Source: Nocardioidaceae bacterium (lineage in GTDB: Bacteria; Actinomycetota; Actinomycetes; Propionibacteriales; Nocardioidaceae). From it: DNA of 40,496 bases. The stretch covers positions 1 through 40,496 of the forward strand of contig JAQSWV010000034.1 in assembly GCA_029266455.1 (NCBI GenBank). The letters are read 5' to 3'. The position numbers and the translations under genes are program-made. Under the pieces are notes generated by a model, which saw only the letters and a list, made by a program, of their open reading frames with translations, searched no databases and was not told the origin of the DNA. Of this stretch, positions 14,603 through 18,247 are shown in pieces (the first letter of the stretch is position 1; every line of letters begins with the position of its first letter).

Positions 14603-16981
14603 ATGTCCACGACCCCTGCCCAGCACGCGATCCCGCGTACCCTCGCCGACGCCCTGCGGGGCTGGGACGACGCTTCGCTGGCCGCGCTGCTGCTGGCCCG
14701 ACCGGACCTCGCCCGACCGGCGCCGGTCGACGTCGGTCAGCTCGCTGCGCGGGTCGGCGGCCGCAGCTCGGTGGCGCTGGCCGTCGACCGGCTCGACACG
14801 GCCCACCTCACCGTGGTGGAGGCCCTGGCCCGGCTGGACGAGCCCGTCGGCGGAGCCGACGTCGCGCGCGTGGTGAACGCCGAGCCCGAGACGCTGCACG
14901 CCGTACTGGGACGGCTCCGCGCGCTGGCGCTGCTCTGGGGTCAGGACGACGACCTGCGGCTGGTCCGCAGCGCGCGCGAGGTGCTGAGTCCGCATCCTGC
15001 CGGTCTCGGACCTGGTCTGCGCACGCTGCTGCTCGGGCTGGCGCCGGCCAGGCTCTCGGCGCTCGCGGCCGACCTCGGCCTGCCGGTCGCGGGCGACCCG
15101 ACGACCACGGCGAGCCGGGTCGCCGGCGCCTACGCCGACGAAGGGTGGGCGCAGGCCAGGGTCGACGAGGCGGCCGCGGCGGGCGGTGCCGACGCCCTGC
15201 GCCTGCTGGACCGGCTGGCCGACGGACCGGCCAGTGGCCGGCTCGGCCAGGTGCCCGACGACGTCCGGCTCGGGTCCGCCACCACTGCACTGGAGCACCT
15301 GCTGGCCCGCGGCCTGCTGGTCGGCACCGATGCGCGCACCGTCACCCTGCCGCGCGAGATCGGCCTGCTGCGGCGGGGCGGGCACACCACCCGGCAGCCG
15401 GTCGACCGTGCACCCGCTCTGGGCACCGCGCCCGTGGACCCCGGGCGGGTCGACCGGGTCGGTGCCGGCGCCGCCTTCGACGTGGTCCGTCGGGTCGAGC
15501 TGGTGCTGGAGTCGTGGGGGGCGGCGCCACCCGACGTCCTCCGGTCGGGGGGCGTCGGCGTCCGTGAGGTGCGCGCACTGGCCGCTGCCATCCATCTCGA
15601 CGTCGACCAGACGGGCTTCCTCGTCGAGCTGGCTCGCGCGGCGGCTCTGCTGGCTCCCGGCGACGACCCCGACCGAGGTGACGTCTGGCTGCCGACGGGC
15701 CTGTTCGACCGCTGGAGGGAGCGGCCGCCGGCGCAGCGGTGGGCGGCGTTGGCACAGGCCTGGCTGCGCACGCCGCGCGCCACCGGCCTGGTGGGTGGTC
15801 GGGACGAGAACGACCGCCCCGTCAACGCGCTGGCGCCCGACCTCGAGCGCGGAGCAGCCGCGACGGTGCGGGCGGCCACGCTCGACGTCCTGAGCTCGCT
15901 GCCCTCCGGCACGGCGATGACCTCGGCCGCCGACGTGGTGGCGCAGGTGGCGTGGGCCCGACCGCGCCGCAGACTGCTCCGGGAGCTCACGGTGCTGCGC
16001 ACCATCACCGAGGCCGGCTGGCTGGGGGTGAGCGCCATGGGCGCGCTCACCTCGGCCGGACGCGCCCTGGTCGGTGGCGCCGATCCCGCACCGCTGGTCG
16101 AGGCGCTCCTCCCCGCGCCGGTCGACCACGTGCTGCTGCAGGCCGATCTGACCGCGATCGCACCCGGCCCGCTGGAGCCCGAGGTCGGCAGGGGGCTCGC
16201 CCTGATGGCCGACGTGGAGTCACGTGGCGGAGCGACGGTCTTCCGCTTCAGTGCGAGCTCGGTACGCCGCGCCCTCGACGCCGGGTGGCCCGCCACGCAG
16301 CTGCACGCGTTCCTCGACGCGCACTCGCGCACACCGGTGCCGCAGCCGTTGACGTACCTGATCGACGACAGCGCCCGGCGGCACGGTCGGCTCAGGGTGG
16401 GTGGAGCCGCGGTGTACGTGCGCAGCGACGACCCCGCAGAGCTCGACACCCTGCTGGCCGACGCCTCGCTGGCCGGTCTCCGACTGCGCCGGATCGCCCC
16501 CACCGTGGCGCTGTCCGACGCGCCCGCCGACCGGGTGCTCATGCGTCTGCGGGCGGCGCAGGCCGCACCGGTCCTCGAGGGCGCCGACGGTCGCAACGCC
16601 GAGATCGCCTCGCCCGTCCGCCGGTCGGCCGTGCCGTCGCAGCCCCTGACCACCGTCTCGGCGCTGGGACCGGACGACGCGGCAGCCGCGGTTGCCGCGC
16701 TGCGCGCCGGTGAGCGCGCGCGCGCCGCGCGGCCCAGCGGCGAGCGTGCCGCTCCCGGGCCGACCCGGCTCGTCGAGCAGCTGCGCGCCGCCGTCGAGGA
16801 CCGCCAGCCGGTGTGGCTCGCCTACCTCGACGAGACGGGAACCGTCTCCGAGCGGGTGGTCGACCCGCTCGCCGTCGACAGCGGTCGGCTCACCGCCTTC
16901 GACCACCGCTCCGCCCGTACCCGCAGCTTCGCCCTGCACCGGATCAGCCGCGTCGCCGCCGCGGGCCGCCCCTCCGGCTGA
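14603..16981 (+). CDS. helicase-associated (XPB/Ssl2-like N-terminal) protein with WYL domain
   Basis: A 792-residue protein related to the mycobacterial gene next to ercc3 (Rv0862c, from memory). The N-terminal ~450 residues are repeated winged-helix-like units rich in Leu/Ala/Asp (SVALAVDRLDTAHLTVVEAL; HTTRQPVDRAP). Residues about 500-600 form the Helicase_C_3/XPB-N-like module (VDHVLLQADLTAIAPGPLEP; FRFSASSVRRALDAGWPATQ). Residues about 720-790 are a WYL domain (AAVEDRQPVWLAYLDETG, then VDPLAVDSGRLTAFDHRSAR). No Walker motifs are present, so it is not itself a helicase. It likely works with XPB in DNA repair or binds nucleic-acid ligands through WYL. Here XPB lies 3.7 kb downstream instead of adjacent. 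ATG 14603 gives the family start (MSTTPAQHAIPRTLADALRG). Confidence 0.87.
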   Translation: MSTTPAQHAIPRTLADALRGWDDASLAALLLARPDLARPAPVDVGQLAARVGGRSSVALAVDRLDTAHLTVVEALARLDEPVGGADVARVVNAEPETLHAVLGRLRALALLWGQDDDLRLVRSAREVLSPHPAGLGPGLRTLLLGLAPARLSALAADLGLPVAGDPTTTASRVAGAYADEGWAQARVDEAAAAGGADALRLLDRLADGPASGRLGQVPDDVRLGSATTALEHLLARGLLVGTDARTVTLPREIGLLRRGGHTTRQPVDRAPALGTAPVDPGRVDRVGAGAAFDVVRRVELVLESWGAAPPDVLRSGGVGVREVRALAAAIHLDVDQTGFLVELARAAALLAPGDDPDRGDVWLPTGLFDRWRERPPAQRWAALAQAWLRTPRATGLVGGRDENDRPVNALAPDLERGAAATVRAATLDVLSSLPSGTAMTSAADVVAQVAWARPRRRLLRELTVLRTITEAGWLGVSAMGALTSAGRALVGGADPAPLVEALLPAPVDHVLLQADLTAIAPGPLEPEVGRGLALMADVESRGGATVFRFSASSVRRALDAGWPATQLHAFLDAHSRTPVPQPLTYLIDDSARRHGRLRVGGAAVYVRSDDPAELDTLLADASLAGLRLRRIAPTVALSDAPADRVLMRLRAAQAAPVLEGADGRNAEIASPVRRSAVPSQPLTTVSALGPDDAAAAVAALRAGERARAARPSGERAAPGPTRLVEQLRAAVEDRQPVWLAYLDETGTVSERVVDPLAVDSGRLTAFDHRSARTRSFALHRISRVAAAGRPSG

Positions 16982-17010
16982 CCCGTTCCCCCGCTTCTGG
17001 GCCGCGGAAC

Positions 17011-17094
17011 TTTCGCTGGGTGGGCTGCGAAAACTGCGCTTCCGGAGGGATATAGCGCCGTGGAGGCGCATCTTTCGCAGCCCACCCTGCGAAA
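17011..17094. repeat. 84-base near-palindromic element (33-base inverted arms, 18-base spacer)
   Basis: Arms 17011-17043 and 17062-17094 match in inverted orientation at 29 of 33 positions. Each arm also contains its own smaller inverted repeat (TTTCGC ... GCGAAA around GGGTGGGCT). The spacer is 18 bases and includes GGGATATAGCGCC, which is less GC-rich than the surroundings. It starts 29 bases after the WYL-protein stop and ends 34 bases before ybdK. It could be a repetitive extragenic palindrome or small non-autonomous mobile element, a strong terminator, or a structured RNA leader. No T-tract is visible. Confidence 0.85.
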
Positions 17095-17128
17095 ACACCA
17101 TCGCGACCGGAGGTGGCACGATGCAGCA

Positions 17129-18247
17129 GTGAAACGGCGAACCATAGGTGTCGAGGAAGAGCTGCTGCTGGTCGACCTCGACGACGGAACCCCGCGTCCG
17201 TCGGCGGGGCCGGTGGTCGGCTCGGCGGACCGGCAGCAGACCGACACCGGCGCGGGGGAGGTGGAGAAGGAGCTCAAGCGGGAGCAGGTCGAGTCCAACT
17301 CCGAGCCCACGGCCGACCTCGACGAGCTGCGGGCGGACCTGCACCAGCTCCGCCGCCGGCTCGCCGACGCGGCGGGCAGCAACGGCCTGGGGGTGGCGGC
17401 CCTGGGCACCAGCCCGCTGAGAGCGACCCCGACGCCGACGCAGGACGAGCGCTACGAGCGCATCAACCGCGAGTACGGGCTGACCACGCGCGAGATGCTC
17501 GTCAACGGCTGCCACGTGCACGTGTCGATCGACTCGCCCGACGAGGCGGTCGGCGTTCTGGACCGGATCCGGCCATGGCTGGCGACCATCAGCGCGCTGA
17601 CCTGCAACTCGCCGTACTGGCAGGGCGCCGACAGCGGGTACGCCAGCTATCGGCACCGGGTGTGGACCCGCCTGCCCAGCGCCGGGCCGGTCGAGCTGTT
17701 CGGCGACCCGGCCGGCTACGAGCGCGCCGTCGAGCAGATGATCTCGTGCGGCGCCGCGATGGACGCCGGCATGGTGTACCTCGATGCGCGGCTGTCCCGC
17801 GAGTTCCCCACCGTCGAGCTCCGCATCGCCGACGTGTGCGCCGGTGTCGATGACGCCGTGCTGGTGGCCGGGCTGTGCCGCGGGCTGGTCGAGACGGCGG
17901 CGCAGGAATGGGCGGCGGGCGCGGAGGCGCCGCAGGTACGCCTGGAGGTGCTGCGGGGCGCAGCCTGGCGCGCGGCGCGCTCGGGCGTCTCCGACCACCT
18001 CGTCGACACACTCACGGCGACGACCGCACCCGCGGCGCAGATGGTGGACCGGCTGTTCGAGCACATCGGCCCGGCGCTGGAGTCGCACGGCGACCTCGAC
18101 TCGATGCGGGCCGAGGCCGCCCGGGTGCTCGAGGACGGCACCGGAGCCGACCGGCAGCGGGCAGCGTTCGACCGCAGTGGCGGGGATCTGGTCGCGGTCG
18201 TGACCGATGCGGTGACCCGCACGACATCGGCCGCCGCGGACCGATGA
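17129..18247 (+). CDS. YbdK-type carboxylate-amine ligase (GCS2 family)
   Basis: A 372-residue member of glutamate-cysteine ligase family 2. Start IGVEEELLLVD, then VEKELKREQVESNSEPTADL, NGCHVHVSIDSPDEAVGVLD, NSPYWQGADSGYASYRHRVW and FPTVELRIADVC are the conserved ATP/metal and substrate segments. Family members have weak glutamate-cysteine ligase activity and the true substrate is generally unknown. Length fits (about 370). GTG 17129 is preceded by GGAGGTGG at 17109-17116, 12 bases away, which is long. A three-codon ORF (ATG 17121, CAG, CAG, TGA) has better spacing to that site and its stop overlaps the GTG (GTGA), so reinitiation may control translation. The 84-base inverted repeat lies upstream. 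Confidence 0.88.
   Translation: MKRRTIGVEEELLLVDLDDGTPRPSAGPVVGSADRQQTDTGAGEVEKELKREQVESNSEPTADLDELRADLHQLRRRLADAAGSNGLGVAALGTSPLRATPTPTQDERYERINREYGLTTREMLVNGCHVHVSIDSPDEAVGVLDRIRPWLATISALTCNSPYWQGADSGYASYRHRVWTRLPSAGPVELFGDPAGYERAVEQMISCGAAMDAGMVYLDARLSREFPTVELRIADVCAGVDDAVLVAGLCRGLVETAAQEWAAGAEAPQVRLEVLRGAAWRAARSGVSDHLVDTLTATTAPAAQMVDRLFEHIGPALESHGDLDSMRAEAARVLEDGTGADRQRAAFDRSGGDLVAVVTDAVTRTTSAAADR

Follow-up and report, generated by a model that had tools for sequence, protein, structure and literature searches.

Dispersed palindromes in a Nocardioidaceae genome and a putative partner gene bracketed by inverted copies of the same repeat

Small palindromic repeats of bacterial chromosomes are described in several forms, which differ above all in the enzyme, if any, that accompanies them. 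In REP/REPIN systems, extragenic palindromes lie behind genes in dozens of copies per genome, as singlets and inverted doublets with a genome-specific sequence, and one gene, encoding the Y1 HUH transposase RAYT (TnpA-REP), is bracketed by inverted copies of the same type (PMC2817692, PMC3733652). CGTC-tagged REPs, including dRS3, have an 8-9 bp stem with A/T outer pairs and a 4-5 nt loop and no RAYT (PMC3733652), whereas MITE/insertion-sequence pairs combine short non-autonomous ends with a single-gene unit flanked by inverted repeats. The repeat described here resembles REP/RAYT in layout and appears to work like it, but it is not a member of that group, as it lacks the Y1 transposase and is associated instead with a gene for an AbiEi-type winged-helix protein with a nuclease-like C-terminal domain.

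The window analysed is a stretch of 40,496 nucleotides of a Nocardioidaceae bacterium (GCA_029266455.1, contig JAQSWV010000034.1, positions 1 to 40,496). The 84-base nested palindrome reported by a first-pass annotation at 17011-17094 is present as described. Its arms, 17011-17043 and 17062-17094, are 33 nt long, are complementary at 29 of 33 positions (88%) and lie 18 nt apart, and its folding energy is -62.7 kcal/mol against -32.4 for shuffled sequences (z -8.6, 0 of 200 shuffles as good). The TTTCGC/GCGAAA repeat occurs in each half, as TTTCGCTGGGTGGGCTGCGAAA at 17011-17032 and TTTCGCAGCCCACCCTGCGAAA at 17073-17094. The element lies behind a gene for a Helicase_C_3 + WYL protein (14603..16981, plus strand), whose stop is 29 nt before it, and ahead of a gene for a GCS2 (YbdK-type) protein (17129..18247, plus strand; start codon chosen by coding score and ribosome-binding site), with the ribosome-binding site GGAGGTGG near 17109-17116 behind the element. 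The further claim that these two genes are usually adjacent was not supported: among 10 named loci around ybdK relatives, a relative of the WYL gene lies beside ybdK only in a same-genus MAG, where a copy of the repeat also lies between them.

The palindrome is one of a family of dispersed repeats. In its own genome (3.43 Mb, 128 contigs) the 22-mer pattern with up to 2 mismatches has 41 matches and the reversed control none, and these resolve into 33 full elements (33 left and 8 right copies of the 22-mer), with one further copy cut by the end of a contig. The 33 copies align without a gap in a rigid register: a 22-bp palindrome A, a 40-bp palindromic segment B, and then either half of A plus an arm of B (TTTCGC plus an arm ending in AGTG; here C) in 25 short forms, or a second A in 8 long forms, four direct and four inverted, always 62 bp from start to start. 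The window copy is a long, inverted form, with the left A at 17011..17032 (plus strand), B at 17033..17072 (plus strand), whose altered core GGGATATAGCGC replaces the family core GCGCTGCAGCGC in an imperfect palindrome, and the second A at 17073..17094 (minus strand); it is preceded by a 5-base left border, GGAAC, at 17006..17010 (plus strand; GGAGT, GGAAG or GGAAC in the family). The possibility that the palindrome is a single copy amounting to a local terminator, which the first-pass annotation had set against its own reading, is thereby refuted.

Although the 22-mer itself is private to this genome, with no match at up to 2 mismatches in 340 other family genomes and no exact match in a wider collection of genome contigs from which the own genome may be left out, a covariance model of the own copies (R1) finds full-length relatives with the same 85-bp register in 117 of 335 Nocardioidaceae genomes, representing 9 of 26 genera. 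The architecture is kept and A differs from genome to genome; in several genomes its half-sites TTTCAC/GTGAAA and TTTCCC/GGGAAA resemble halves of parS and Noc sites, though 10 bp apart. An alignment of 100 elements from 9 genomes, comprising 17 of the 33 own copies, 53 of 66 places in a congener (those of length 85 beginning TTT, minus two dropped for shifted register) and 30 relatives taken from the top of the R1 search, contains no gaps, and 21 of 26 pairs of A and B change on both sides, in 353 cells against 155 in shuffles, although it should be noted that the models used to find relatives contain these pairs, which favours pairing. Within the own genome alone the B stem showed no covariation above shuffles. 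The alternative pairing of B's 5' arm with the C arm also exceeds shuffles on some measures, and we read it as a repeated half-site rather than a switch. A broader model (R2) in 394 genomes of the class finds 43 with matches at E <= 0.001, 30 in this family and 13 weak cases in other families; two of the genomes from other families, with 8 and 4 weak matches (best E 4e-7 and 5e-5; G577 and G439 of our genome set), perhaps carry related repeats outside Nocardioidaceae. One copy from another genome of the set (G219) had no match in phage and plasmid records, and two patterns had no exact match in IMG/VR.

The position of the copies would at first sight fit a transcription terminator or mRNA 3'-end element, as they typically lie 10-40 nt behind stop codons, with a strong hairpin and a strand preference: over both congeners (62 of 66 places used in the second genome), tandem gene pairs hold the element with A towards the upstream stop in 39 cases and reversed in 11 (p 9e-5). 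However, over the 100 aligned elements G-T pairs (113) are no more frequent than A-C mismatches (121), as expected for palindromes kept as DNA rather than as RNA; there is no constant U-tract and no length variation in loops or linkers, Rfam gave nothing near gathering scores, and such a function leaves the gene bracketing described below unexplained. An RNA function is considered unlikely. The first-pass interpretation is therefore supported only in part: the REP-like or small non-autonomous transposon alternative is borne out by copy number and by bracketed gene-bearing relatives, whereas the alternative of a structured leader of ybdK is not, since copies sit behind many unrelated genes and show no sign of RNA-level selection.

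The only other genome of the genus in the set (G001), taken to be the MAG Nocardioidaceae bacterium MGR_bin155, has 66 places. Nine of the 33 own copies share a gene junction with a copy in this congener, six by both neighbours and three by the upstream neighbour only, against 0.78 expected by a rough estimate with about 2,800 genes, and the WYL-ybdK junction is one of them. Positions are thus shared, but sequence is not: A is 0.98 identical among own copies, 0.75 between orthologous own and congener copies (5 pairs from the nine junctions averaged) and 0.76 between non-orthologous ones. Either copies changed in concert within a genome or the same sites were hit again. Rigidly spaced dyads, conserved positions and DNA-level palindromes could also mark an old chromosome-organising site (gyrase-, ParB- or MatP-like) with no mobile history, but this is unlikely in view of the species-specific sequence, the bracketed gene and the presence or absence of copies between congeners. 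The congener carries two sub-families, of which sub-family I (TTTCGCTGG-N4-CCAGCGAAA) is the more abundant, yet only one bracketed gene at E <= 1e-20 was found there and its brackets are of sub-family II, so sub-family I looks orphaned or its gene lies in an assembly gap. Loops of A and B in the congener occur in both orientations (GTCA/TGAC, TTGTTT/AAACAA), as if small inversions happen inside the palindromes, which would also explain the direct and inverted second A of the own long forms.

Mobilisation by a RAYT, suggested by the layout, is contradicted by the gene content. PF01797 is found in 3 of 335 family genomes, not in the own genome or the congener, and the three carriers (G231, G339 and G340) are not among the genomes listed with the repeat; nor is there a constant GTAG (GT[AG]G) tetranucleotide beside A in the 33 own copies. 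The repeat shares with the CGTC-type REPs an 8-9 bp stem with A/T outer pairs, a 4-5 nt loop and the lack of a RAYT, but they are likewise not matched, as no constant CGTC/TGTC/CCTC tag directly before the stem or CCA-like tail was found (the left border varies: GGAGT, GTCGG, GCAGG, GCGCT), the unit is a composite A-B-C and it has a partner gene; in the searched text of the paper describing them (PMC3733652) no word beginning Actinobacteria or Nocardioid occurs.

A different candidate partner emerged from inverted pairs of copies. In the complete genome G097, several copies form inverted pairs facing each other. Some are doublets about 185 bp from start to start that resemble REPINs (contig C1, 1113644/1113830, 1584021/1584207, 1888834/1889019 and 347016/347189), and in three loci examined (L211, L212 and L216) no gene was called between them. 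Wider pairs enclose a gene, and in own contig C115, G001 contig C159, G097 and G294 this is the same protein family; one other G097 pair (736492/737500) encloses an unrelated gene, methyltransferase-like by eye. A profile of the four proteins finds matches in 295 of 335 genomes, often several per genome, which is wider than the R1 repeat matches, so presence alone proves no link. Model R2 found both brackets in 16 of the 30 top loci, one bracket in 4 and none in 10, with the four loci that had seeded the query among the 16. A model-free scan found flanking inverted repeats at E <= 1e-8 in 47 of 50 loci, four of them (L224-L227) seeds of the query, against 0 of 88 control genes taken from the window, loci L114-L123, L214 and L221; three loci lack clear inverted repeats, and in one set of 20 loci five (L254, L255, L257, L259 and L260) had been chosen because an element hit was already known nearby. 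Units are 1199-1438 bp long. Short non-autonomous ends together with a single-gene unit of about 1.2 kb with inverted ends are features shared with MITE/insertion-sequence pairs. The brackets are most similar to the dispersed repeats of their own genome in 17 of 20 cases, three rows that were the same elements as the tested brackets having been left out, while in G084 and G307 they resemble other genomes' repeats more. Brackets of more distant members of the gene family (L229, L230, L233, L247, L262 and L266) have other sequences with a similar arrangement, or tandem repeats, so that the family of end repeats is wider than R1 and R2 reach.

The encoded protein of about 310-340 residues combines an N-terminal AbiEi-type winged helix with a C-terminal domain that is a probable Vsr/PD-(D/E)XK-like nuclease. 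All 50 ORFs are open across the match, 46 of 50 proteins match AbiEi_4 at E <= 1, and AbiEi models in PADLOC reach to about residue 190; no DDE, Y1 or serine transposase, nor any other transposase family, was matched in Pfam, and IMG/VR held no relative of the protein. The C-terminal part carries the pattern E...D...ExDG..K...E..R, with E217, D249, E260, D262, K266, E284 and R287 invariant in the 50 proteins, and its assignment rests on these residues and one weak profile match to AbaSI (E 0.44), whose matched domain is Vsr-like; Vsr-like nucleases, AbaSI and Vsr-like homing endonucleases among them, have residues similar to those of this domain. In contrast to the type IV toxin-antitoxin system AbiE, the four units read contain only one predicted gene between the brackets and hence no AbiEii nucleotidyltransferase toxin partner inside the unit, and the protein has the additional C-terminal domain. 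AbiEi antitoxins bind inverted repeats, and rigid spacing fits a protein-DNA complex, so the protein could be a regulator or defence protein with the palindromes as its operators or insulators. This non-mobile reading seems unlikely, because dispersed copies lie behind genes and not in promoters, both sides of the gene are bracketed, and sites differ between congeners.

The clearest such difference is at own contig C115, where the 1.2-kb unit lies between two genes, whereas the same junction in G001 (contig C196), with flanks 82.9% and 78.6% identical, has only A palindromes; the outer palindrome with its unusual GAGAAC end is present in both. This site could, however, be a deletion remnant rather than an empty target. 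Of 15 G001 junctions that align to 1.17 Mb of own sequence, 4 hold an own element (one of them the C115 unit) and 11 do not, and in several of these the own gap is 60-105 bases shorter. Around short copies no target duplication above control was seen for 3-9 bp, but because A is palindromic, A itself could be a duplicated target.

Taken together, these results suggest, with a probability of roughly 0.68, that the palindrome is a non-autonomous, REP-like end piece (A-B-A form) of a chromosomal mobile element family of Nocardioidaceae, whose gene-bearing unit of about 1.2-1.4 kb consists of an end repeat A-B-C, one gene and the same end repeat inverted, with C ends inward. In the proposed mechanism the protein binds the dyads A and B of its own genome's repeat type and nicks or cuts there, and the unit or its end repeat is copied into sites at or near palindrome A behind genes, by break repair or a homing-like process rather than by cut-and-paste with target duplication, while existing copies are converted to the current type; this would also explain the concerted change and the lack of short duplications. 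The repeat family, its architecture, the inverted bracketing of the gene, the matching of bracket and dispersed repeat within a genome, one filled/unfilled site and the species-specific sequence at shared positions are established by the analysis, whereas binding, cleavage, copying, conversion and hence any mobilising activity, as well as the nuclease function, are inferred, and the dispersed copies could have been spread by another enzyme. It is tempting, though more tentative than not, to hypothesize a class of bacterial mobile element separate from DDE, HUH, serine and tyrosine transposons, in which an AbiEi-winged-helix/Vsr-like nuclease copies its palindromic ends, and sometimes its gene, into palindromes behind genes by a homing-like process and keeps resetting all copies in a genome to its current recognition sequence, giving REP-like repeats that stay in place over species divergence while their sequence changes in concert.

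Repeats with a bracketed cognate gene are already known from REP/RAYT, and what differs here is the partner protein, the absence of the GTAG tag and the 85-bp three-part unit; whether the enzyme makes this a class of its own is left open. Literature searches, restricted to open-licence papers, listed nothing describing this pairing, and a term search of PMC6006769 gave no hits. A RAYT-less, REP-like family here has a cognate candidate gene with a different domain make-up, in a bacterial family with many complete genomes. This turns "orphan" palindromes into a testable pair and gives a candidate function to a gene family found in 295 of 335 genomes searched, and the concerted change at shared positions also raises the question of how 22-bp repeats are homogenised.
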